Below are positions 10,364 through 48,244 of a DNA stretch of 64,000 nucleotides, one piece after another. Source of the DNA: an uncultured Spirochaetales bacterium. GTDB taxonomy: Bacteria; Spirochaetota; Spirochaetia; Sphaerochaetales; Sphaerochaetaceae. Position numbers and translations under genes: made by a program. How positions within the stretch are numbered: position 1 is the stretch's first letter; each line of letters begins with the position of its first letter. The DNA lies in the NCBI GenBank assembly GCA_949285905.1, contig CASDZV010000088.1:1-64000 (forward strand). Reading direction: 5' to 3'. The notes below the pieces were generated by a model, which was not told the origin of the DNA, did no database searches, and was given only the letters and a program-made list of their open reading frames with translations.

Positions 10364-12109
10364 TCACACACCCCACATGTAAGCAATTGCAGGAATGACT
10401 ACAAACATTGCAATCGTGCAGACTGTGAGCAGGATGAAAAGGACTCTGAGCTTGATGCCGTTGTAAGCGATAAGAACCTTATCCTTTCGTACCTGTGCTC
10501 TCTTTGCTGCTATTGCCTGATACGTCATTATCATGATGACTGCAAGCGTGAAGATATTAATCATCGTTATGAGCGAGAATATACCAGCATCGGAGACCAT
10601 TGAGAGACCGACAAGCATAGAAGATATGACACCGAAGAGTCCTGTGCCGAGCATTCCCACGCTGTCTTCTCCTGTGTAGCTCTGGCTGTAGAATGCGATG
10701 ATAATCCATATGACAACGCTGAAAAGGTTGATGAATGCCTGCAGGAAGAGCGAGATGCCAGCTCTGTTTGCTCTCACGATGATCTCCAGCTGCGTGCGGA
10801 CCGACTGGTCAAAATGGACTGCAGGATCATTGTTCTCGTCGTAGTAATAGTTCAGGCGGAGTGTGAAATTATCCACATCATCTGTGTCATGAATAAGTCT
10901 GTAACCTGATGTGATGCCAAAGTACGGTGTGAAACCGCTGACTCTCGTTCCATCTTCGCTTACAGATGTATCAGGAACATAGCGGATGTAATCTGCATCC
11001 ATTGTCGGGAGGATGTACATCTTGAACTGCACAGAATCGAGAGGATAGCGGACACTGTCGAAAGCCTTCTCGAATGCTGCGTTGAATCTTATCTTCTGAT
11101 AGCACATCGTCCTGAGATTACCGTTCTCATCGTAATACTGAACCTCTTCAAGCTCCTTGAGCGTTCCGAGGCTGTCCGGGACAAACTCACCATTGCCGAT
11201 TACAAACATTGTCTCCTTGTCTGTAAGAACGTTCGAAGGTGTCTCCCCCGGATAGTACTCATGGTCATGTGCCTCTACCCATTCCTCGAAATAATCAGAA
11301 TGGTCAGCAAGCCAGGATTCGAATGAGAACTCATTGACAGGACGTACCTCATCAGACTCTGCATAGTAATCATTGATGACCTGATCCATCAGCACGTTTC
11401 TGGCATAATGCCTGAACATATTTCTGAACTCATCCTTGTCGAACTTGAAGAAGATCTGCATTCTTCCTTCATAAGAAGATGTAGCTGAGGAGATGTTCTT
11501 GATCTTCTCAAGGACTGCACCGACAGTGACTTCCACATAATAAGCATCAGGGTTATTAGCCTTCGATGTGCCCTCAAGGTCATCATGATACTTCTTCTGA
11601 ATCGGGTCGTAGATATCATACTCAAGACCATCGCTGCCCATTCTATACTTTCTCATATCATCATAGCGCTCAAAGGCGACTTCCGAAGCGCAGTAGAGAA
11701 TGAAAGCAATGAGAGGCACGGCAATGACAAGCACGGAAAGCACGAGCTTCACGCGCTTACGATAACCGATCATCTTCCAGTTCCTGCTGAAAAAGTGCTT
11801 CTGCTTCTGCCGTTCGATATCATTCTCGATATCATTGCGCTGCACAGAGAGAAGATCCGCGTCAATCTGTATCAGATCCTCCTCTGGAAGTTCCTTTGTG
11901 TCATCTGTCAGGATTTCCACAGGGATGAAGAAGTATGCAGCGACTTTCACACACAGCTTGTATGATGGCTGTTCCTTCCCGGAAAGCACTTCATGCATCT
12001 TTGCAGGATTAAGCGAGATAGCACGTGCCAGTGTAATGCCATGCACGCGCTCAAGATAAGATGCGAGAATACGGAGTTTCTCGACTGTTCTTCTGCCAAT
12101 TTCAATCAT
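10364..12109 (-). CDS. Membrane protein with N-terminal HTH domain
   Basis: 581 residues with an unusual architecture. Residues about 1-75 resemble a Cro/C1-type helix-turn-helix unit (ITLARAISLNPAKMHEVLSGKEQPSYKLCVKVAAYF). A first membrane helix lies at about 123-145. A long extracytoplasmic region of about 300 residues contains many acidic residues and strand-like segments (FTLRLNYYYDENNDPAVHF). Four further hydrophobic helices lie between about 455 and 580. This layout, a DNA-binding-like domain tethered to the membrane with a large external sensor and a C-terminal helical bundle, suggests a one-component sensor or membrane-remodelling protein. I do not recognise a named family. Confidence 0.65.
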   Translation of the reverse strand: MIEIGRRTVEKLRILASYLERVHGITLARAISLNPAKMHEVLSGKEQPSYKLCVKVAAYFFIPVEILTDDTKELPEEDLIQIDADLLSVQRNDIENDIERQKQKHFFSRNWKMIGYRKRVKLVLSVLVIAVPLIAFILYCASEVAFERYDDMRKYRMGSDGLEYDIYDPIQKKYHDDLEGTSKANNPDAYYVEVTVGAVLEKIKNISSATSSYEGRMQIFFKFDKDEFRNMFRHYARNVLMDQVINDYYAESDEVRPVNEFSFESWLADHSDYFEEWVEAHDHEYYPGETPSNVLTDKETMFVIGNGEFVPDSLGTLKELEEVQYYDENGNLRTMCYQKIRFNAAFEKAFDSVRYPLDSVQFKMYILPTMDADYIRYVPDTSVSEDGTRVSGFTPYFGITSGYRLIHDTDDVDNFTLRLNYYYDENNDPAVHFDQSVRTQLEIIVRANRAGISLFLQAFINLFSVVIWIIIAFYSQSYTGEDSVGMLGTGLFGVISSMLVGLSMVSDAGIFSLITMINIFTLAVIMIMTYQAIAAKRAQVRKDKVLIAYNGIKLRVLFILLTVCTIAMFVVIPAIAYMWGV

Positions 12110-36060: not shown

Positions 36061-37998
36061 TTACAGCCATTCATTTGCCGTAAGCTTGCGGATTTCTTTC
36101 ATGTCGAAATACTTTTGAACCATTTCAAGAATCTCTACTCTCACATCACTGTTCCGTATATTCTTTATTTCAGCAAGAATCTTCTCTTTTTCATAATCCC
36201 TGATAAACCCGCCTTCACCAAGGTATCTGGCTGCTACAAGATTCTTATTCTCCAATGCAACCAGGAAAGGAGTTTTACCTTCAGCATTGAATTCCGTCAG
36301 GAAGGTTTTATTTGCTAACGAATCAAAAATGTGCCATTCAACTCCTGAAAATGAGGATGTTTCCTTTCTGATTGCGGCAAGCTCACACCCAATATTTCTT
36401 TCAAGCCAGGCAATATCAGGATCAGCACCATTCGAAATGAGAAATTCAATTGTATCATCAGCATACCTATCCAATGCCTGGGTCAGTGGAATCATGTTCA
36501 TATTATTTGCCCTGTTGATGTTTTCCTTGTCTTTTCTTACTACCATACTGAGAAAATCCGAGTCAAAACAAGGCTGCCTGACAGCTTGGTGAACAGGAGT
36601 GAAGCCAAGAGGATTAGCAAATCCTGATCCAGCGATGTCGAGCAGATCTGAAATTTCTTTATCGTCTTCTTCGGTACTGTGTCTTAATGCTCTTGAACAT
36701 ATAAGCTGAAGAAGAAGAGCTCCTGCTTCTGCTTTAATGCTATCAATATTCAGCTCAGTTGAAGTCTTTCCTCTTTCTGTGAACATTTTCCTCTCATCAT
36801 CTTTCATTAGAAATCTGTATGATGCGAGCTGATCAAAAATAAGCCATGATGTGGAGATATCACGAGACCAGTCCCAGCAGAATTCATAAAACAGACTATG
36901 TTCATCATTGCAAGCGTCAATAACAGAGGATTTCCTCAAAATCTTTGAAAAGCATGCGGGGAAAAGATTAAGACTGCGGACAGCTAAGTGCAGAATTCCA
37001 TATTCATGCATCTCAAATACGAAGGCAGGCATGTGAGAAATTAGTCTTTCAATATACGTGCATAGCTTGATATCGATATCTCTGATTAACGTAATTGCCG
37101 GGTCATGAATGAAACATGGATTCAGTCTGGAGAATTCTGCAGCAGTGGATACGAAGATAAATAGCAGATGATAAAAATCTTCATGAGAGAAGTGATATAC
37201 CCCTCGTCCTATCAATTTGCATATATTATCGTAGGCCTTGAAGAAACTGATATCATCCTTAAACCACAAATCACGGTCAGAATCAGTGAAGACATTGAAT
37301 CGACAACCATTTCTGACAAGACGTTCTATTGATTCATATGAACAGGTGCTGATTGCAGTGTCTAGGATAGATGAGTACTCTGGCATATGATTTATTTTGT
37401 TATATGAGATATACCACTGTTCTCGGTCTGTTCCAGCCCAGCTGATGAATTTTATCGACACTGAATTACAGTTATGAAGATACCTTTCGACAATTTCAGA
37501 GAAACTATCCAGGACAGTCAGATTTTTCAGGATCAGGACAGGTTTTGCTGCTTTCTGCCCATATCCTACCAGAACTAGTCTCTCATATTTTACTGGATCA
37601 AGATCAAAATAGTCTGTTATCTGAGGTGAAATTATGATTGTTCCGCATTCCTTCTTATACTCGGCACAGAAAGTCCTGAAGTGAAGGTTATCGAAATCCT
37701 TTTTATTTCTTAGCTGAATAGCATCAGCATTTACCCCATTAGCAAGCAAAATGCAGAAATCAAACGCTTCAGACAACGCCCATTCAGAATCTAGTTTGAA
37801 GTACAGTGTTTTGTATTCATGGTTCAGGAGCTGCTCTACTGACAGCCCGTCCAAGCATGTGATATCAGCTTCAAATCCATATATATCATCTTCTCTACGG
37901 CCAGCATAGAAAGCAAAAACTTTCTTACCATGGGCATGCAATAATATTTTACCTTTTGTAGAAACTGAAAGGCTTGTGTAATCATTAAACTCACTCAC
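36061..37998 (-). CDS. Ankyrin-repeat protein ANK-A
   Basis: 645 residues from a GTG at 37998 with GGAGGT 4-5 bases upstream, the same spacing as the esterase gene. The N-terminal about 180 residues are alpha/beta with hydrophobic strands (KTLYFKLD, GTIIISPQITDYF, ERLVLVGYG). The middle about 300 residues are helical. The C-terminal third holds ankyrin repeats: GFTPVHQAVRQP, MIPLTQALDRYADDTIEFLISNGADPD and GKTPFLVALENKNLVAARYLGEGGF. The last helices (KEKILAEIKNIRNSDVRVEILEMVQKYF) match the end of ANK-B. There is no signal peptide. Its promoter carries the island operator; a 7-codon open frame lies between promoter and start. Confidence 0.75.
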   Translation of the reverse strand: MSEFNDYTSLSVSTKGKILLHAHGKKVFAFYAGRREDDIYGFEADITCLDGLSVEQLLNHEYKTLYFKLDSEWALSEAFDFCILLANGVNADAIQLRNKKDFDNLHFRTFCAEYKKECGTIIISPQITDYFDLDPVKYERLVLVGYGQKAAKPVLILKNLTVLDSFSEIVERYLHNCNSVSIKFISWAGTDREQWYISYNKINHMPEYSSILDTAISTCSYESIERLVRNGCRFNVFTDSDRDLWFKDDISFFKAYDNICKLIGRGVYHFSHEDFYHLLFIFVSTAAEFSRLNPCFIHDPAITLIRDIDIKLCTYIERLISHMPAFVFEMHEYGILHLAVRSLNLFPACFSKILRKSSVIDACNDEHSLFYEFCWDWSRDISTSWLIFDQLASYRFLMKDDERKMFTERGKTSTELNIDSIKAEAGALLLQLICSRALRHSTEEDDKEISDLLDIAGSGFANPLGFTPVHQAVRQPCFDSDFLSMVVRKDKENINRANNMNMIPLTQALDRYADDTIEFLISNGADPDIAWLERNIGCELAAIRKETSSFSGVEWHIFDSLANKTFLTEFNAEGKTPFLVALENKNLVAARYLGEGGFIRDYEKEKILAEIKNIRNSDVRVEILEMVQKYFDMKEIRKLTANEWL

Positions 37999-38062
37999 TT
38001 TACCTCCGCCCAGCAACTTTCCGGGATGCTGCTATCCTCTCTGTTTGGCATGATTTCCCGTT

Positions 38063-38086
38063 TTATTGATGCTGTTGTCTGTTCAT
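38063..38086 (-). other. 7-codon leader frame or start remnant (MNRQQHQ)
   Basis: The ATG lies exactly 6 bases after the TATCAT of the ANK-A promoter, and its first codons Met-Asn-Arg-Gln match the start of ANK-B; it stops after seven codons. It is out of frame with ANK-A, which begins 64 bases further on. It may be a leader peptide or the remnant of an older ANK N-terminus. Confidence 0.45.
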
Positions 38087-38092
38087 GGGTTA

Positions 38093-38126
38093 ATGATATC
38101 TGCAAAAGTGTACAATTATTTATACA
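38093..38126 (-). promoter_or_regulatory. ANK-A promoter with island operator
   Basis: Read on the minus strand: TGTATAAATAATTGTACA (38126-38109), 10 bp, TATCAT (38098-38093), then 6 bp to an ATG. The same arrangement precedes ANK-B and ANK-C. Confidence 0.65.
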
Positions 38127-38177
38127 GAAAATATCACCAGATTCCGCATATTGTTTCGAATCAAAGGAACCGTTCGG

Positions 38178-38225
38178 AAAAAACAAGAATCCAATCTGAC
38201 TTCGAGCTGAAGCGTTGGATTCTTG
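38178..38225 (-). terminator. Terminator of the WYL-ANK-B-DUF262 operon
   Basis: An 11-bp perfect stem (CAAGAATCCAA / TTGGATTCTTG), with an inner CTTC/GAAG stem in its loop, is followed on the minus strand by six T. It lies about 85 bp after the stop of the second DUF262 gene and isolates ANK-A as its own transcription unit. Confidence 0.8.
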
Positions 38226-38309
38226 CACTCTTATTCAAAGACTAGCTGGAAAGGATATGAAACTCTTCATGCAGAACTTAGCACTAACCTCCGCATGATG
38301 ATTCTCTCC

Positions 38310-40628
38310 TTATTTTGATTCCACTACATATTCATCTAAACGGCTAATTAAGTTTACAGCCTCCTGCTGTATTGCAGTTTTAATACTTTTTTCATCGTTT
38401 AGTGTAGACACTCTAACATTAATTTCAATTACTGGCTCCCATTTGCACGAATAATCTATACATCCATTCTTTATCGGGACTTCAGAAATAAAAGTTTTGT
38501 ACTCCTTGTAGTCAATATTCAAAGAAAAGATTTTATCGCATCCCGAATAGCGGAAATATAGATTATCACCTCTGTATCTGTTGTACTCACCTTCTCGTGG
38601 AACTGAATACCTGAGGACAAAATCTGAGTTTTCCAAGTCTGGGATTTCCACATCCCGATACAACCAGCCTTTCTTCTCATGATTCCAATGAACGTAGCAT
38701 GGAATCATCTTTTTGCATTGTTTAAGCATGGAACAAAACAGTTCATTGTTGACACCCAACCAATATATTGAATTATCGGCACTTTTGATTTGTTTTGCCG
38801 CGCCATCGAGCATATACCACTCATTTCCAGATTTATTTCGAGGATAAACGCATGGGTACCCGTAATACCATCTGTAGCGCATCATTCTCTCATCTTTTCG
38901 TTTGTCAGCAGCAACCATTTTACCGAGTTCAATAAGATGTTTCCTGATTGAGATAAAATCAGTTTTGTCATTTCTTTCATCGTTAATAAAGTATCTGTGC
39001 GTAAAATCAGAATAAGCACGATCAAGAAACACTTTCCTCCAATGAAGGTCTGTGGACACTTTTGTGTCAAAAAGAAAACACTCATGAAGTTCCCCGATTT
39101 CTGATTCCATCACGAAGCGTTCAAAAAGCTCCGATGGAAAGTTTGTTAATTCTTTATCTTCAGCCCCAACCTTAAAAACATCGAAAAACTTATCTGTTTT
39201 ATCTTTAAAACTGACCCAATCTACTTTTCCAGTTTCATTTCTGAATAAGAAACGGACAGCACCATTTGCAAAGCTGAAATTCTCAGCCTTAATGAGCAAA
39301 GTTGTCTGTTCGTCATTTGCTCCTGCTTTTTGAACTTCTTCTTCGAACTGATCAAATAAATTTGAAGCTTTTGATTTGAGCTCGTCAAACTTATAATCTT
39401 TCAGTGCTTTTGCTATGTCTTCTTTCTTTCTGCCTAGTTCAGTGAGCAATTTAACTCTTTCAATTGAAGGCGTTGTGTTATCAAGGATATTACATGCAAA
39501 TCGCATCCATCCTTCCAGATTATCCTGATGAGTACGCTCATCAATACCGAAAAATGCTACACATGACGCTAATATCTCAGAAGGGATTTTCCCCTCTGGC
39601 GCTAATGATGCTTTTTTCCTACTCGGCAGAATATCAGTCAATGCTTTATAGGAAACATCTTCTTTAGAAAAGAAATCAAAGAATGCAGTTAAGGTTTTTA
39701 TTGCATACGATTCCTCAATGCCTGCATTCTTAATGCTTTCGAAATAATCATCAAACGCAATGTAGAGATCCTTCTCGCACGATATTTTCTTTGCGGTATT
39801 CTCTTTGGGCACTTCCAGAAAAGAAAACCAGCTGCGGATAACATACATGATTGTATCCGTCACATTTTTATCAATGTCGTCATTCTCATTCTTGTTACAT
39901 TTTGAAGCAAACAGTTTCTCATAGAAACTATTAGCTGCTTTAACAAACCTATCATCTTTGAATTTCTTCACAATACCGGATTTGAATATCTCAAACTCTG
40001 TAAGCGCTCTTCCTCTTGCATTCATTGTGCAGAAAACATTGTCAGGAAGGTTGCTGTGCAATTCCATGAATGTGATTTTGCTTAACCGCTCAAGACAATC
40101 ACTTGCTGTCAATGATTGTTTTTTTTCAGTTCCTTTGTCTTTGAACATGGTCATAATCATGGAATAAGTCCGGGCAAGCCCTTCTGCTGTGGGACTATCA
40201 TGCCATAATTCAGGAATAGTCAGTTTTGCAAAATCACTTTCGCCTGAAAGAAGTTCTTTTATATATTGCTCAGCCTTATCCCTCGCTTCAAAGTGGAAAT
40301 TCCGCAGGACATTTAACTTATTGGCCGTATTTTTATCCTTCTCGCAAACAGCTTTTTTAAAAACATATGCATAAACGAGGAACAATGTAGTAAGTCGTTG
40401 TTGGCCGTCTATCGGATAATACCTTCTGATGTCATTATTCCGAGAATCCCCATATGTGAAATCAAGTGTGAGTGCAGTGTCACCGAATATCGCATCCAAT
40501 ATCGATGAGATGAACAGCTTCCGGATATTTCTAGCCTCTGTGTTATCTCGACCTTGGGCATAATCTCTTTGCATTGCAGGAATTACTATGATGTGATCCG
40601 CCAGAAATTCTTCAAGATTTGTTTCCAT
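38310..40628 (-). CDS. DUF262 protein, second subunit of a GmrSD-like pair
   Basis: 772 residues. The ATG at 40628 was chosen because GGAGGGGG lies 6 bases upstream; a start 7 codons earlier would place that site inside the gene. IPAMQRDYAQGR (16-27) and PIDGQQRLTTLF (72-83) are the ParB/Srx-like DUF262 signature, in which DGQQR is thought to bind a nucleotide. The remaining about 650 residues are helical and then beta-rich, with many Trp/Tyr (MRYRWYYGYPCVYPRNK, YVHWNHEKKGWLYRDVEIPD). I see no HNH motif of the GmrD kind. The gene overlaps the upstream DUF262/DUF1524 gene by 17 bp, so the two products are probably made in fixed ratio and work together. Confidence 0.8.
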   Translation of the reverse strand: METNLEEFLADHIIVIPAMQRDYAQGRDNTEARNIRKLFISSILDAIFGDTALTLDFTYGDSRNNDIRRYYPIDGQQRLTTLFLVYAYVFKKAVCEKDKNTANKLNVLRNFHFEARDKAEQYIKELLSGESDFAKLTIPELWHDSPTAEGLARTYSMIMTMFKDKGTEKKQSLTASDCLERLSKITFMELHSNLPDNVFCTMNARGRALTEFEIFKSGIVKKFKDDRFVKAANSFYEKLFASKCNKNENDDIDKNVTDTIMYVIRSWFSFLEVPKENTAKKISCEKDLYIAFDDYFESIKNAGIEESYAIKTLTAFFDFFSKEDVSYKALTDILPSRKKASLAPEGKIPSEILASCVAFFGIDERTHQDNLEGWMRFACNILDNTTPSIERVKLLTELGRKKEDIAKALKDYKFDELKSKASNLFDQFEEEVQKAGANDEQTTLLIKAENFSFANGAVRFLFRNETGKVDWVSFKDKTDKFFDVFKVGAEDKELTNFPSELFERFVMESEIGELHECFLFDTKVSTDLHWRKVFLDRAYSDFTHRYFINDERNDKTDFISIRKHLIELGKMVAADKRKDERMMRYRWYYGYPCVYPRNKSGNEWYMLDGAAKQIKSADNSIYWLGVNNELFCSMLKQCKKMIPCYVHWNHEKKGWLYRDVEIPDLENSDFVLRYSVPREGEYNRYRGDNLYFRYSGCDKIFSLNIDYKEYKTFISEVPIKNGCIDYSCKWEPVIEINVRVSTLNDEKSIKTAIQQEAVNLISRLDEYVVESK

Positions 40629-42336
40629 GATATTCCCCCTCCAGTCCAAACAGTTTTTTCAGCTCAGTCAAGTACTTGGTCATAGCTTCTTTATTCCATT
40701 CATTTTCCAGACTGTTATATTTTTCCTCGACACAGAAAGGAATGTACTCTCTCTGGGTTTCACAGGCATCTTTGATAACATCACACTTCAACGGATAAAT
40801 AGCATTTCCGAATCCCCTGTTTATTGTTGCAGGTAACAGTACAAGATTTCCAATGGAATCCAGCCAGGTTTCTTCATCTCTTTGTGGTGTAATAATGTAA
40901 TAACCGCTGTCATCTTTTTCCATCTGACCACTTCCTTCCTTTGATCTGATAACAATGCTATTAATGAGGCAGACAAGATATTGCAGACCAGAGAGTCCGT
41001 TGTAGAAAGTATCGACATCTCTATCAAACTTATCGGAGACTACTCCATCTTTCTCTTTGACTAATTCCAATTTGTCATTAATGAACTTCGCATACTCATC
41101 ATCACTCTTGATATATCCAGCTCTGATAATTGCTTCTAAAAGCGCTTTAACATCCTTAGAAGTGGGTTCTCCTTGATTTCTGGCATGAATATGTTCTATA
41201 TCCCATTCAGTAGAAGCATATCGGACAAAATCAAAAGGAAGGTGCTCGTCGGAATATCTCAGAATCATTGAAAGGAATAGCAACGGATAAATAATTTTAT
41301 CATCAACACCCTTTTTCAGATTTTCAATTCTCTTATTATTAAGCACGCCAACAGCCGCGCCTTTCAGCTCTTCAAAGAAAGAGAATTGTTTATTTTCAAA
41401 CTTCTTTGAATATATGTCCTTGAAAACAGAGAATTCTACCTCTGCTTCTTTTTTATTATAAAGACGGTACCCAGTGTAATTATGTACGTCTGCATTGAGG
41501 TAGCAGTAGGAATAGAGGAAATCCAGAACATACTTTTCCAATTTATCAAAACTGAGCTCTTCCCTCATTTTTTTGTACAGGAAGATAGAATCTTTTTCAT
41601 AAAGTTCTGCAAATTCTTTATAGCACTCATCTTCTCTGCAATTTGCGAAAAAGAGTTCGAGGATATAATCCATCCTTGTTGCCTGATATCTTCTGCTTGC
41701 ATGCTTCGGACAGATGAAGAAAAAGAAATCATCATTCTGCAGAAGCGCTTCAATCCGCTGCCATCGGGAAGCCCTGTTCTTCTGCCCGATTCTTCCCTTT
41801 TCCTCTGAGACCCAGTCTGCTTTGAGGAGTTCTGCAGAACTTAATGGGATTTTACCTGTGTTAATCCTCTCAAATACCTTTGCTGCGTCCTCTTTTGTTC
41901 CATCTATTTCATAGACAAAGAATCTGCATTTGTTGAGTTTTTTCCTGAACTGATCCTTATCCTTGACATTTGCCCCATCTTTAGCATGTTTAATGAAACA
42001 TAAATCAGAGGGATTACGGGATATCTTCTCCGTTTCTCCAAGCAATTCTTTTACCGTTTCGTTATCTTCATTACAGAGCCGTTTCAATATTGCTATTGTT
42101 GTAAGTCTCTGCTGTCCATCAACAATGTCATAGGATTTATCGTCACTGTTTTTCTGACGAATGAGAACATTGAGAAAGTATCCATCTTCTTGTTTGTCAT
42201 CTGATGCTTCTATATCTTCAATAAGCTCATTTACTTCCTCTGGTCTCCAGCGATATCCCCTCTGGTAATCAGGAATCGTATAATGATCTTCAAATAATTT
42301 TGTTACAGTTACAGGCTCCTCTATGAGAGAACTCAT
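40612..42336 (-). CDS. DUF262/DUF1524 protein (GmrSD-type endonuclease)
   Basis: 574 residues. The N-terminal DUF262 domain has IPDYQRGYRW (21-30) and IVDGQQRLTTIAIL (71-84). The C-terminal DUF1524 region has WDIEHIHARNQ (378-388) and IGNLVLLPATINRGFGNAIYPLK near 500-525, the His-Me-finger nuclease pattern of GmrD. In E. coli GmrSD this family is a Type IV restriction enzyme cutting glucosylated cytosine DNA; DUF262 proteins also occur in other phage-defence systems. GAGGAGGGG lies 5 bases before the ATG. It lies 61 bp after ANK-B with no terminator between them, so it belongs to the WYL-ANK-B operon. Confidence 0.85.
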   Translation of the reverse strand: MSSLIEEPVTVTKLFEDHYTIPDYQRGYRWRPEEVNELIEDIEASDDKQEDGYFLNVLIRQKNSDDKSYDIVDGQQRLTTIAILKRLCNEDNETVKELLGETEKISRNPSDLCFIKHAKDGANVKDKDQFRKKLNKCRFFVYEIDGTKEDAAKVFERINTGKIPLSSAELLKADWVSEEKGRIGQKNRASRWQRIEALLQNDDFFFFICPKHASRRYQATRMDYILELFFANCREDECYKEFAELYEKDSIFLYKKMREELSFDKLEKYVLDFLYSYCYLNADVHNYTGYRLYNKKEAEVEFSVFKDIYSKKFENKQFSFFEELKGAAVGVLNNKRIENLKKGVDDKIIYPLLFLSMILRYSDEHLPFDFVRYASTEWDIEHIHARNQGEPTSKDVKALLEAIIRAGYIKSDDEYAKFINDKLELVKEKDGVVSDKFDRDVDTFYNGLSGLQYLVCLINSIVIRSKEGSGQMEKDDSGYYIITPQRDEETWLDSIGNLVLLPATINRGFGNAIYPLKCDVIKDACETQREYIPFCVEEKYNSLENEWNKEAMTKYLTELKKLFGLEGEYHGNKS

Positions 42337-42397: not shown

Positions 42398-44515
42398 CTA
42401 TATAAATCGTTCGGCATCTCGACAACAGCAAGAGTTGTTATTCATTTTCACCCCATTAGCAATTATCCTGCAATACAGACCATCAAGTTCCGCACGCATT
42501 GATGCTGTATTCACCCTGTCTATCTGCTTCCGGATGTATTCCAGGTCAGAATCCTGCACATAGCCGTTCTTCACAAGAAATCTTATCGCCGTCATGTTCA
42601 TATATTTGAACGCTGTCATCACCGGCGTGAAACCATAATTATCAGTTAAGAGGAAAGCTTTCTTGTCTTTTATATTTCCAATGATATTCCAGGCTTCTTC
42701 ATCAACTCTGAAAGAGCGAGCAGCTAAATGAATGGCAGTTTCACCTATCTTGTTCTGGATTGCCCCATTAACTCCATGATTGATTAGGAAAGATAGCTTC
42801 TTGTTATTATCCCAGTTGTCCCAATATGCACGGATTGCATACATCAGAGCTGTGTCTCCAGCCCAATCTGTCGCATTAATTCCTATACCAGCTTTTAATA
42901 TGTCGTCAAAAAGCTCTGGATCATACCTGTAACTGATTAGATGCATCAGAACATTGCTTCCATCCTTTATGAAGACAGCTTTCTGGAGAGCATCGCAATC
43001 TTTCAAAAGCTTCTTGAAGATATCTTTGAACACCTCTCTTCGATATCCCTCAGCAAAACACAAAGCATCAACAACTGCAGGGATATATTCATGTAGATCA
43101 TAATCAACTATGCCTTCAATGCGTTTCTGAAATTCACGGTAAAAGTGTGTAGTACAAAAGCTTCCATTCCTATTTATATTATCAACCTGTACATCAGAAT
43201 TTCCGAACAGTTCAAAAACTTCCTCACCCGCACCATAAGTACTCAAATAATAAAGTGCATTGTTTCCATCATCATCAACTAACCATGGTTCCTTCGTGAA
43301 TTCTAAAATCGTCTTGTATAGTTCTGGGAGAAAATATCTGCCATATAGAATTTCACTTGCATACATGAGCAGAGTTTTTCCCTCGTCATCACGAAAGGAA
43401 AAGACTTCTTCCGGAAAGAATGCGGATAATCTTCTGAATTCTGAGCAGAATTTCCTTTCCGCAGTCGGCAATTCTCTTTGATTAAAATACTGCCCGCTCT
43501 CTTTGCATGTCCTTGTATATCTCAGAAATGAAACGGCTATATAAAAAAGCTCTTTAATTTCGGCCTTGTAGCCATTTTCCAGAAGCCAGCAAATTTTATT
43601 AAAGCTTTCAATATCCATAGTGTCATCTGATGGCAGTTCTGCAAGTCCGAATAAATCATCCTCGATATATGACTCGGCTCTGTACGTATCTCCGCATTTC
43701 AATAAAAAGGTAACAATCTCGTCCATGGATGTATCTTGCAGATTAATTGCCGTTTTCAGAAGCGAAGTACTCCCCGGCATTATCGGCCCTGGTTTTCCAG
43801 GATATCCGAGTATTGAGACAAATTTCTCCACAACATCTAACCTTCCAGTCTTGATGAAATATTTTGAAAGTTCCTGCCATTCATTCTTTCTGAGGGACTC
43901 CCTTACCTTGCTGTCTTCGAGTGCAGAAAGCAAAAATGAAGTGAAAGGACATTCATCCGGCTGCAAAACAGTATGTTCAAAGACTATCCTATGTCCCTCC
44001 CATTGCCGTTCATTCTCTGGAGTATCAATGATCAAGAACCTGAGATTGTTTTCCTCACTAAGGAACTGCCGAATCTGTGTTTTCTCATATTGGCCCAGAT
44101 CTCTACCATCAATAATGAAAAACCTGTTAAATGGTTTATTTTGCATCAATGCGAGTCCAGCAGATACATTACAACTCTCTGCCCATGAAAAGTGATCAAG
44201 CCCAGACTCTTCTGTGACAAAAACGATGTTCAGATCCTCAAACATTATGACTGATATTGCTGCTAGAACTGCAGTGCACCAGTAATCAGGAGATATCATT
44301 ATCCTTATGTCCTTATCTTTATGTAAAAACCAACGATAACTTCCTCTGCTGTAACAGGTAATATTGTATTGTGCCTCACCATCTTTTATAGCAGCACGTA
44401 TACACAAATTACGAAAGTCTTCAAATATTCCACAAAATGGCTCACGGGACAGCTGGTGAGCATAGTTTCCTGTAATTCGCGCAGTGAAATCAGATATGTT
44501 TGTTTGTCTATTCAT
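42398..44515 (-). CDS. Ankyrin-repeat protein ANK-B
   Basis: 705 residues. Residues about 60-190 form an alpha/beta region with hydrophobic strands (IRIMISPDYWCTAVLAAISV, LNIVFVTEE, RFFIIDGRDLGQYEKT, LRFLIIDTPENER). The order of strands resembles a P-loop ATPase, but there is no Walker A motif. The rest is helical and ends in ankyrin repeats (GKTLLMYASEILYG, GNNALYYLSTYGAGEEVFELFG, GDTALMYAIRAYW, GETAIHLAARSF, GFTPVMTAFKYMNMTAIRFLVKNGY). The final 15 residues contain CCC. The start (MNRQ) lies 6 bases after TATCAT in the shared promoter; GAGGT directly abuts the ATG, too close to be a normal binding site. Confidence 0.75.
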   Translation of the reverse strand: MNRQTNISDFTARITGNYAHQLSREPFCGIFEDFRNLCIRAAIKDGEAQYNITCYSRGSYRWFLHKDKDIRIMISPDYWCTAVLAAISVIMFEDLNIVFVTEESGLDHFSWAESCNVSAGLALMQNKPFNRFFIIDGRDLGQYEKTQIRQFLSEENNLRFLIIDTPENERQWEGHRIVFEHTVLQPDECPFTSFLLSALEDSKVRESLRKNEWQELSKYFIKTGRLDVVEKFVSILGYPGKPGPIMPGSTSLLKTAINLQDTSMDEIVTFLLKCGDTYRAESYIEDDLFGLAELPSDDTMDIESFNKICWLLENGYKAEIKELFYIAVSFLRYTRTCKESGQYFNQRELPTAERKFCSEFRRLSAFFPEEVFSFRDDEGKTLLMYASEILYGRYFLPELYKTILEFTKEPWLVDDDGNNALYYLSTYGAGEEVFELFGNSDVQVDNINRNGSFCTTHFYREFQKRIEGIVDYDLHEYIPAVVDALCFAEGYRREVFKDIFKKLLKDCDALQKAVFIKDGSNVLMHLISYRYDPELFDDILKAGIGINATDWAGDTALMYAIRAYWDNWDNNKKLSFLINHGVNGAIQNKIGETAIHLAARSFRVDEEAWNIIGNIKDKKAFLLTDNYGFTPVMTAFKYMNMTAIRFLVKNGYVQDSDLEYIRKQIDRVNTASMRAELDGLYCRIIANGVKMNNNSCCCRDAERFI

Positions 44516-44563: not shown

Positions 44564-45565
44564 TTATTTCTTGTATCTTTGAATCATGGACTCAAGCTCT
44601 TCCTTCACTTGTTCCCTCATGTTCTCAGGCTTGAGCAGAGTGGCACTTGAGCCCATACTCATAAGCCATTTCTGAAGACCATAGGAACTTGCTGTCTTGA
44701 GTGTGAATAGATAGTTTCCATCTTCACGCTGTCTGAATGTAACACTCTCTGGCCAGGCTTTCTGAATCTCATACCATCCCTGATATTCATCAATCAGAAC
44801 CTCCGCGATGAATGGTTTTTCTGTCTGGTAGAAAGGGAACGGATCATCAAAATCATTGCACTGTTCTGGCTCTGGATAATCTTCCTTTTTAAGCTTTACC
44901 AGCCTGACGATTCTTGATAACGCCAACAGCTGTCTCTGTCCATAGATGTTGATAACTTCAGCGTAGACCGCACCGTCCTGCACGATGACTTTGTTCGGAT
45001 AGATATCATATTCCACCTCAGCCTCTGAGTTTCTGCTTTCATAGACTACATGACACTTAATTCTTTTCTCTGAGGATTCAAGAAGGAGAAGCAACGTCTT
45101 GAAGTATTCTGGAGAAAGCTTGAAAAATGAACCGAACCTTGAGAAAAGAGGCTTGATTTCTGTCTTTGTCTTCGGATTAATTACCATTCTCAGCCTGGAA
45201 ATGAATTCAGAACCACACATCTCCATAAGAGGTGATGTTGAAGATGCTGTTTCCAGAACGAAATTAAGGAAACGGATATCGTCTTCACTCAACACTCCGC
45301 TGACAATGCTGTTCTTCCATCTGGCTGCTGTATCAGGTTCAATCTTGTACAGCATCTTTCTGCTTCCATCCACTGATTTCTCTGTATAATATGCAAAGCC
45401 CATTTCATCCAAAGTCTCAAGCACATTGAAAGCTGAAGAACGATTATTAACTCCCAGAATGTCCATTATCTCATATATCGTACATCCCCTTTCTTCTCTT
45501 TCTGTAATCAGAGAGGCAACAGCAAATACCTTGGCAAATCGTGACCATACTTTTCCTTCTTTCAT
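44564..45565 (-). CDS. WYL-domain transcriptional regulator
   Basis: 333 residues. A winged-helix HTH lies at about 15-65 (CTIYEIMDILGVNNRSSAFNVLETLDEMGFAYY). A WYL domain spans about 150-225 (IKCHVVYESRNSEAEVEYDIYPNKVIVQDGAVYAEVINIYGQRQLLALSRI), followed by a WCX-like C-terminus (FIAEVLIDEYQGWYEIQKAWPESVTFRQREDGNYLFTLKTA). Such proteins often repress defence operons (BrxR, CapW) and sense a nucleic-acid or nucleotide ligand. GAGGT lies 6 bases before the ATG. It is divergent from ANK-C, and the operator lies between them, so it probably controls itself, ANK-C and, through the same site, ANK-A and ANK-B. Confidence 0.85.
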   Translation of the reverse strand: MKEGKVWSRFAKVFAVASLITEREERGCTIYEIMDILGVNNRSSAFNVLETLDEMGFAYYTEKSVDGSRKMLYKIEPDTAARWKNSIVSGVLSEDDIRFLNFVLETASSTSPLMEMCGSEFISRLRMVINPKTKTEIKPLFSRFGSFFKLSPEYFKTLLLLLESSEKRIKCHVVYESRNSEAEVEYDIYPNKVIVQDGAVYAEVINIYGQRQLLALSRIVRLVKLKKEDYPEPEQCNDFDDPFPFYQTEKPFIAEVLIDEYQGWYEIQKAWPESVTFRQREDGNYLFTLKTASSYGLQKWLMSMGSSATLLKPENMREQVKEELESMIQRYKK

Positions 45566-45637: not shown

Positions 45638-47566
45638 ATGAATAGAGAAGTAGAGAAATATTACATTAATCGTATCGATGAAAACCACTCTGTAAATTTC
45701 ATCAAAGAAGCTCTTGTTACTGGAATCAGGTCGGACAACGTCGAACTTACCAGAAAAGCAGCAAAAGCATTGCATTTCTCTGGCAAATTCTATGGGTACT
45801 TTTCTCCACTGGAATTTGCCATTAAAGAAATGGCTTCAGCAGAAGTAATCAGTACACTGCTAGGGGCAGGATATGAACTATCCAAGCCTTGCCATGATCT
45901 CACACCATTTGATGGATCTCCTCAAAAGCTTATGGATTTATGGATGGAAACCAGTGGGAAAACAAAAGAAGAAGCCTTAGTGGTTCTTGCTGCTGATATC
46001 AACTACTTCTTCCATGTGATAAGGACTGATTATTCCTGCTACAGGATTTCTTATGACATAGATGCAGATGACAGGTACAAGCCCTGCTTCTGGAACTATC
46101 TTGATGAATGGATGTCTGCTTTTATCAGGCTTCTGGCCGAGAATAAGAAACTTGAAATCGTAGATTCATATTTTGTAAGGAGCATCATTGAAAATGAGGA
46201 ACTGAGGAAATCATTTATTACCTTCTTTGACCTGCTCTCTTCAGATATAAATGATGATGATCTTTCCTGGTACATCAACATAGCTGTCGCTGATGATAAT
46301 GAATACGTTTTTGAGCAGCTTATAAATCACAGACCGGAACTTTTGAATCGAATCGATTGCTATCCATCACGAAGCAAAATGATTCTGAAGTGTCTCTTTG
46401 ACAACGGTATCCTTCTCCCTGGTACAGATGAAGGATTCAATGCATTCATTCCCCGCATTGCATTCGGAGAGAATGATAAGGAAATCCTGTTTGCAATTGC
46501 ACACCCATCATATTCAATACGCACATCGGAAGAAGGAAAAACATCGTTGATGTATGCAATAGAGAATAAGGATTTTCCTGTCGAGCTATATAAGCTCCTC
46601 ATCGCCTCACCTGAGGATGTCAACAAACAGGATGAAGATGGAAGGACAGCCCTGCATTACATGGCAAAGACTGAATATCCTGAGTGCATGGAAAACCTTC
46701 TGGAACTTGGTGCAGATCCATTCATTACAGATAACAGAGGGAACAATGTCCTGCACATCCTTGCAGAAAACAAAGAAGGTCTCTCAATTGATATTTTCAG
46801 TGATTGCATCTCGCACCTTCCCCAAAAACTTCTCAACATGGAAAACAGCAATGGTATGACACCAATTACTCTATTTTTCCAAAGGCTGACAGGAACAGAG
46901 GAAGATCTCTATAAGAAACTTTCTTTTAATCAATTTCTTGAACAGTATCTTGTCTCTCCGGAGTCTTTGAATGGGAATATCCTTATAGGTGGCATAGTTA
47001 ATGAGGCAAGATTTCAGACACTCTCATTGGTACGGAATCACATAATCAGACAACTCACCGACAGGGAAATTGAACATGAAGTGGTCACCGACAAAACACC
47101 AGAGGATACTGTGTCCCTGCTTGAGAAACTTGCGGATGACAGTAATGATATTTTTCATCTTGTAGTTATAGACGAAATCTATGATTGTCAGAGCCCGGAA
47201 CTTGGAGTACGGTTTGAATATGCCATAAATCGTCTGGTTGGAAATACAGACGTCCTCATCATTGCAGCTTCAAAATTCAGCTCAGCTGACATAATCACCG
47301 ACATAATCCAGCATGCATTCCCATACAGGATTACGTCAAAGCAGTCTAGTGACCTTAACAGCAAGATTTTCATCGATGAGGATTATGCTGCATATATCGC
47401 CAAGGATGAAGCCATCATCAAAGGCTTCGGTGACGATCTCCTGCTATGCGATCTTGAATCAAATGAAAAGGAAAGCGAGGAAATGGATGAAGATTCCATC
47501 GTTCTTGCTGAAGCCGAAAGAATCCTGGACAAGCATTTATCTGCCTTCAAGGAGCTTGCAAAATGA
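45638..47566 (+). CDS. Ankyrin protein ANK-C with degenerate FtsK-like domain
   Basis: 642 residues. The N-terminus (MNREVEKYY) and about 290 helical residues lead into ankyrin repeats at about 299-415 (GKTSLMYAIENKDFPVELYKLL, GRTALHYMAKTEYPECMENLLELGADP, GNNVLHILAE, GMTPITLF). The C-terminal region (446-606) follows the FtsK/SpoIIIE motor core. GNILIGGIVNEARFQTLSL stands where FtsK has its Walker A strand and GTTGSGKS loop, but the Gly-Lys-Ser is lost. LVVIDEIYD (508-516) is a good Walker B, and LIIAASKFSSADIITDII plus FPYRITSKQSSDLNSKIFID align with LIxATQRPSVDVITG and the following FtsK segment. It overlaps doc by 4 bp (ATGA). Confidence 0.75.
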   Translation: MNREVEKYYINRIDENHSVNFIKEALVTGIRSDNVELTRKAAKALHFSGKFYGYFSPLEFAIKEMASAEVISTLLGAGYELSKPCHDLTPFDGSPQKLMDLWMETSGKTKEEALVVLAADINYFFHVIRTDYSCYRISYDIDADDRYKPCFWNYLDEWMSAFIRLLAENKKLEIVDSYFVRSIIENEELRKSFITFFDLLSSDINDDDLSWYINIAVADDNEYVFEQLINHRPELLNRIDCYPSRSKMILKCLFDNGILLPGTDEGFNAFIPRIAFGENDKEILFAIAHPSYSIRTSEEGKTSLMYAIENKDFPVELYKLLIASPEDVNKQDEDGRTALHYMAKTEYPECMENLLELGADPFITDNRGNNVLHILAENKEGLSIDIFSDCISHLPQKLLNMENSNGMTPITLFFQRLTGTEEDLYKKLSFNQFLEQYLVSPESLNGNILIGGIVNEARFQTLSLVRNHIIRQLTDREIEHEVVTDKTPEDTVSLLEKLADDSNDIFHLVVIDEIYDCQSPELGVRFEYAINRLVGNTDVLIIAASKFSSADIITDIIQHAFPYRITSKQSSDLNSKIFIDEDYAAYIAKDEAIIKGFGDDLLLCDLESNEKESEEMDEDSIVLAEAERILDKHLSAFKELAK

Positions 47567-47992: not shown

Positions 47993-48244
47993 ATGGCAAA
48001 CTATTACTGCAAACATTGTGGACAGAAATTCTCAAGTGTGAATTCACTGACATCACACAGCTGCCCAAGACATCCCAATGGAATGTTTAAGGGAAAGCAC
48101 GAACTGTATGAAGGCAGTGAAAAATCAAAATACACTTGCAAGTATTGCGGACAAACCTTTTCCTCTATCAAGAGCATGACAGATCATAGCTGTCCAAGAC
48201 ATCCTGATGGTGTTTTTAAGGGGAAACATTCTCCTGCTTTATAG
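47993..48244 (+). CDS. Double zinc-finger miniprotein
   Basis: 83 residues made of two near-identical units: YYCKHCGQKFSSVNSLTSH, SCPRHPNGMFKGKH, then YTCKYCGQTFSSIKSMTDH, SCPRHPDGVFKGKH. Each has Cys-x2-Cys-x12-His-x-Cys-x2-His, close to a C2H2 finger with an extra Cys. CGGAGG lies 9-10 bases before the ATG. It is the last gene of the ANK-C-doc transcript and could bind DNA, RNA or the partner proteins. I cannot name a family; similar short repeats occur in other gut bacteria as far as I recall. Confidence 0.75.
   Translation: MANYYCKHCGQKFSSVNSLTSHSCPRHPNGMFKGKHELYEGSEKSKYTCKYCGQTFSSIKSMTDHSCPRHPDGVFKGKHSPAL

Follow-up and report, generated by a model that had tools for sequence, protein, structure and literature searches.

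In E. coli, a class of mRNAs carries an upstream AUG 0-2 nt from the 5′ end (5′-uAUG), which opens a short upstream frame (uORF) of 5-26 amino acids (Beck, Fleming and Janssen 2016, PMC4965119). For fucP, pnp and rcnR, the distance from the uORF stop to the gene start is given as 77-89 nt (PMC4965119). These 5′-terminal AUGs are described as translatable, and knocking them out shifts the downstream gene by between -93% and +52%, or not at all (PMC4965119). Leaderless mRNAs have been reported to be common in the spirochaete Leptospira (PMC5243855). For BrxR, a WYL-family regulator of defence islands, the operator described consists of 11-bp repeats with a 5-bp spacer; a -10 box is predicted on the upstream side of these repeats, and the start codon of BrxR itself is placed 51 bp past the probe (PMC9122601). 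A search of open-licence papers found no account of the promoter module considered here, or of residual stubs downstream of leaderless promoters.

The present locus lies in a stretch of 64,000 nucleotides of spirochaete DNA (the window), in which a minus-strand ATG (38086-38084) opens a frame of seven codons, MNRQQHQ (ATG AAC AGA CAA CAG CAT CAA), that ends at a TAA (38065-38063) ahead of the ankyrin-repeat gene ANK-A. The frame is real and was correctly described in an earlier sequence-only reading, which had also placed the start of ANK-A 64 nt downstream, at a GTG with its own GGAGGT; the sequence agrees, with 64 nt between the stop of the stub and the GTG (37998-37996). The stub is closed ahead of ANK-A and out of frame with it (offset 1), as in a 5′-uORF, and ANK-A has its own Shine-Dalgarno (SD) sequence (GGAGGT, 38007-38002) and start codon, as do the genes of the 5′-uAUG class. 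We consider it likely that this frame is a start-codon stub, the relic of an earlier gene behind a leaderless promoter. The features on which this view is based are collected in Table 1.

Table 1. Positions of the stub, its promoter module and the associated island features in the window
Feature	Position	Strand	Remark
ANK-A, ankyrin-repeat protein	36061..37998	-	645 aa, GTG start
Second small frame MPNREDSSIPESCWAEVK, then a stop	37995..38051	-	TGA overlaps ANK-A GTG (GTGA); weak ribosome site
SD sequence GGAGGT of ANK-A	38002..38007	-	
Seven-codon stub MNRQQHQ, then a stop	38063..38086	-	ATG at predicted +1
-10 element TATCAT	38093..38098	-	10 nt below operator, 6 nt above ATG
Operator TGTATA-N6-TGTACA	38109..38126	-	Presumed binding site of the WYL regulator
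Intrinsic-terminator-like hairpin and T run	38178..38224	-	-19.1 kcal/mol, z -4.42
ANK-B	42398..44515	-	ATG at module's predicted +1 (MNRQTNISDF)
ANK-B end with relic GGGGTGAAAATGAATAAC	42436..42454	-	Matches G363 ANK-B/ANK-A junction GGAGGGAAAAATGAATAAG
WYL/WCX-domain regulator	44564..45565	-	Presumed regulator of three modules
ANK-C	45638..47566	+	ATG at module's predicted +1 (MNREVEKYY)

The ATG of the stub is the end of a promoter module with the layout operator (TGTATA-N6-TGTACA), N10, TATCAT, N6, ATG, which is present not only at the stub but also at ANK-B and ANK-C in this island and in related spirochaete islands. Across 14 aligned modules, the first T, the A and the final T of the -10 element are invariant. 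From the operator to codon 4, the stub is identical to ANK-B at 36 of 52 positions (with one 1-nt shift allowed) and to ANK-C at 32 of 52. This likeness, already noticed for ANK-B in the sequence-only reading, is unmatched at 126,790 other window positions on both strands, the best of which reaches 29/52 and none 36, and the stub ATG is therefore not a chance occurrence. By type, the stub module is slightly nearer to the B modules (35-36/52) than to the C modules (32-34/52). In the window, TTGTACA-N8,30-ATGAAYAGA has two matches, one at ANK-A and one at ANK-B, and 100 shuffles gave no match; a near-identical pattern is found in two of 48 genomes of the genus, the genome itself and another with one lone site elsewhere. 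A profile built from the 14 modules, the three ANK sites of this genome being among the training set, gives strong sites in this genome only at the ANK-A stub, ANK-B and ANK-C, with no fourth, and over 139 genomes of the family its 14 best matches are the training sites themselves. The exact palindrome TGTACA-N6-TGTACA is present in four of the 48 genus genomes and adjoins WYL genes in three of these four. Such palindromes near WYL genes (L031:15095-15112, L032:9460-9477 and 10487-10504, L074:8092-8109) represent a candidate regulon motif.

A leaderless start at 38086, as predicted in the sequence-only reading, is well supported by comparison with ANK-C relatives. Protein searches gave some match to ANK-C in 107 of 139 family genomes, mostly weak or partial, and the 5′ ends of 19 loci were examined (a repeat row was left out, and L102 had no start found). 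Operator and -10 element are present at nine of the 19, and in 9/9 of these the start codon lies exactly 6 nt past the -10 element, which is what supports the leaderless prediction; the remaining ten have no operator. In 180 records (the window and the fetched loci, overlaps collapsed), 25 distinct operator/-10 sites carry at +1 an ATG (14), a GTG (1) or another codon (10), and several of the last group precede SD-led WYL genes or small MANYYC-type genes; a reversed control sequence gave two matches to the same pattern. The count of 15/25 is only descriptive, since the pattern was shaped on known sites, and the 9/9 is less biased. The -10 spacing alone is weak evidence, because TANNNT-N6-start is found at nine of the 46 window ORFs of at least 150 aa (any start in the first 30 codons, ANK-B and ANK-C included). 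The weight rests on operator and spacing together.

On this basis, RNA polymerase most likely starts at the A of the ATG at 38086, and the mRNA would thus begin with AUG, while the WYL protein would act at the operator, by either activation or repression. A ribosome starting at the 5′ AUG would make seven residues and stop, and ANK-A would be translated from the GTG at 37998 by ordinary SD initiation. Upstream of the module, a terminator-like hairpin (38224-38178) was matched in stability by 0 of 200 shuffles, and is absent from the listing of the consensus terminator scan. It ends the ANK-B/GmrSD operon and sets it apart from ANK-A, which consequently requires a promoter of its own. The second small frame below the stub may be what remains of the 3′ end of an upstream gene now lost. 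As a remnant of the ANK-B 3′ end specifically, the leader was considered suggestive only: a free local alignment is not significant, its score being reached in 58 of 300 shuffles.

The wider island is marked by its base composition (G+C 0.37-0.40 at 36-48 kb of the window, compared with 0.41-0.50 outside). Its minus-strand genes encode a WYL/WCX regulator, ANK-B, two GmrSD_N proteins and ANK-A; ANK-C and a Fic protein are encoded on the opposite, plus strand. The regulator (44564-45565) matches Pfam WCX (1.5e-9) and PADLOC WYL (1.4e-17), with Pfam WYL (0.0023) below the cut-off, and thus has the WYL plus C-terminal WCX domains of BrxR-like regulators. A small SD-led gene on the plus strand (47993-48244, MANYYCKHCGQKFSS...) has similar counterparts beside the islands of G063, G363, G030 and G205.

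The island of G363, from another genus of the family, has the order WYL - ANK-B - ANK-A - GmrSD - GmrSD, with ANK-C and Fic divergent. Identities to the window are 85% for WYL, 64% for ANK-B, 40% for ANK-A, 62% for ANK-C and 66% for Fic. The two GmrSD proteins are 28-30% identical to those of G363 (L092). Between the two genera, conservation is thus high for the regulator and the sensors but low for ANK-A and the GmrSDs (window 36061-42336), as though this effector part had been exchanged as a cassette. At the DNA level, window 47943-42438 is collinear with L092 14401-8833, spanning Fic, WYL, ANK-B and the first codons of G363 ANK-A, within which the alignment ends at L092:8833; ANK-A itself aligns separately (window 38004-36109, L092 8846-6951). 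Window ANK-B thus ends in the remnant of an ANK-A start (GTGAAAATGAATAAC), and this points to a former position of ANK-A next to ANK-B and to a derived present arrangement in the window. In the window (42398-42454), ANK-B continues into the C-terminus MNNNSCCCRDAERFI, where G363 ANK-B stops at that point; this C-terminus appears to be read through from the lost ANK-A start.

Full-length relatives of ANK-A are confined to two other genomes, G363 and G017, among 394 genomes of the class that were searched; the 48 genus genomes yielded no further one. A related-locus search with ANK-A alone found none, and with a three-sequence alignment only the G017 and G363 records. In G363, ANK-A follows directly behind ANK-B, with an ATGA overlap with the ANK-B stop and the SD GGAGGG. 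In G017, operator, -10 element (TAGAAT) and N6 run straight into the ATG of ANK-A itself. Neither relative carries the stub frame (0/2). The GTG and GGAGG of window ANK-A align with the ATG and GGAGG of G363 (VSEFNDYTSLSVSTKG and MNKTDDYTSLSISSKG, respectively), the DNA alignment reaching the SD, and the N-terminus of ANK-A has therefore lost nothing. A replacement of that N-terminus, raised earlier as the origin of a scar, is ruled out by this alignment from residue 1; the other half of the proposal survives, as the frame is in kind probably a relic, namely the 5′ end of an earlier ANK-B/ANK-C-like gene.

Other islands provide parallels. The G061 module opens an ANK-C frame, which keeps its likeness to ANK-C for about 45 codons and stops at codon 50, followed by AAAAGGAGATTTTATATG and an SD-led GmrSD gene. 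In G205, a module starts VNKNIEKFLSN, 11 codons from a GTG that resemble the ANK-C N-terminus before a stop, and the next listed frame on the same strand, with GGAGG, encodes a small MANYYC... protein; this G205 stub may serve the gene behind it. In G017 and G223, a site of the module kind precedes SD-led genes that match only the C-terminal part of ANK-C, and no start codon is present at +1. What stands at +1 is thus a full gene in some cases, 50, 11 or 7 codons in others and nothing in the rest, which indicates that the genes behind the promoter turn over. In G030, a 220-aa protein (L077:4877-5539) has an ANK-C-like start (MNRKDTTYY) and the module, and gave no BLAST match to window proteins; an in-frame replacement behind the same start is possible. 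In G205, ANK-C is divided between two adjacent frames (L175:3263-5241), an ankyrin part and a C-terminal part, a split which suggests that the C-terminal domain can stand as a protein of its own.

The origin of the ANK-A stub can be envisaged along the same lines. The promoter (38126-38087) would be of the WYL-operator leaderless type, inseparable from the ATG because transcription begins at the A of this codon. ANK-A, which has its own SD and stands second in an operon in the most closely related island, would have ended up behind one copy of this kind of promoter, formerly that of an ANK-B/ANK-C-like gene. The promoter would have been kept together with the first codons (ATGAAYAGACAA), and the remainder of the old frame lost, so that it ran into a stop. 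The source gene was most likely a different, earlier one of the ANK-B/ANK-C kind, whose promoter included the start codon. We infer this order of events, and also that the peptide is without function; a short frame would remain after such a change of gene because a leaderless promoter carries its start codon with it.

A narrower form of this explanation, rather than an exclusive rival, specifies the route: module, ANK-B and ANK-A were duplicated together, one copy losing ANK-A and the other nearly all of ANK-B, which would leave MNRQ followed by the ANK-B tail, shifted in frame but with its TGA still overlapping the start of ANK-A. We regard this route as possible but somewhat doubtful. It is consistent with the module-ANK-B-ANK-A order kept in G363, with the junction relic behind window ANK-B, with the resemblance of the GTGA overlap to the G363 ATGA, and with the slight leaning of the stub module towards the B type. 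It would also account for 11 nt (ACAGCATCAAT) that match the ANK-B 3′ end in phase, but this match is weak: 41 of 2000 shuffles reach its score, GMR1, one of 21 control genes, scored the same, and the G363 tail shows no match (1614/2000). At the protein level, the leader was equalled by 497/5000 shuffles against the window ANK-B tail and 2418/5000 against that of G363. The route is further disfavoured by the identities to G363 of 40% for ANK-A and 64% for ANK-B, since with such values window ANK-A may come from elsewhere together with the divergent GmrSD pair.

Irrespective of how the stub arose, its 5′-terminal AUG could be functional, with 70S ribosomes loading at 38086, translating from there or waiting, and thereby raising or lowering the translation of ANK-A. 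The geometry fits the 5′-uAUG class of E. coli (PMC4965119), and the frames of uORF and ANK-A differ. We nevertheless judge such a function unlikely, as the stub is absent in both full-length ANK-A relatives, the leader RNA folds no better than shuffles (z = 0.09), the SD of ANK-A itself is strong, and several of the 5′-uAUGs described in E. coli had little or no effect (PMC4965119). An effect of the stub on ANK-A is conceivable, and its sign would be unpredictable, because removals of 5′ AUGs in E. coli act variably or not at all.

It is less probable still that the transcript begins elsewhere, which would make the ATG at 38086 a passive remnant within an untranslated leader or above the true start. 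A simple consensus sigma-70 scan lists no promoter in the region of 38086, where the operator sits in the place of a -35 element; against this reading, the spacing of operator, -10 element and start equals that of the ANK genes that start at the module ATG.

An amino-acid-sensing or attenuator-type leader peptide regulating ANK-A, the first alternative of the sequence-only reading, is highly improbable: a short frame of seven codons, three of them for Gln and one for His, does lie just ahead of the gene, but it has no run of a single codon, the consensus scan lists no terminator-like site in the leader, the fold is unremarkable, Rfam has no match in 37900-38320, and the comparison of homologous islands which that reading had proposed speaks against it through G363 and G017, although a recently evolved leader peptide would be invisible in relatives that are only 32-40% identical.

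If the stub is the relic we propose, tiny upstream frames can be explained without a regulatory peptide, as a gene replacement behind a fused promoter and start codon must leave a stub. The three ANK genes at one operator, with a WYL regulator and with GmrSD and Fic neighbours, further indicate a compact regulon, and the fixed distance from operator to start codon means that start-site annotations can be corrected from the DNA alone. More speculatively, and with little confidence on our part, the WYL-controlled leaderless promoter of these spirochaetes might serve defence-type genes as an exchangeable promoter-plus-start-codon cassette, with a 5′-terminal mini-frame left at every swap and perhaps kept for 70S loading. 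A new SD-led gene would then come under a ribosome state that favours leaderless translation, for example in stress or infection. The stub itself is small; the clear idea that emerges from it is that such a pattern recurs behind a regulated promoter of the leaderless type.

Compared with the described systems, the stub resembles the E. coli 5′-uAUG mRNAs (PMC4965119) in having an AUG at the predicted 5′ end, a short out-of-frame uORF and an SD-led gene. What sets it apart is the homology of its AUG to start codons that open full genes under the same regulated promoter; the E. coli cases are not known to be attributed to former genes (PMC4965119). As with BrxR, a WYL-family regulator adjoins GmrSD-family restriction genes and is associated with an inverted-repeat operator (PMC9122601); unlike that of BrxR, the island operator has 6-bp half-sites with a 6-bp spacer, and lies above the -10 element of predicted leaderless genes. 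Finally, a -10 element directly above the ORF, without SD, is shared with the -10-adjacent ORFs reported for Deinococcus-Thermus (TANNNT by the ORF, leaderless; PMC12340547). In contrast to the leaderless genes of Deinococcus-Thermus and Leptospira, the module goes with a single operator and a single gene family and is rare, with three strong sites in the genome.
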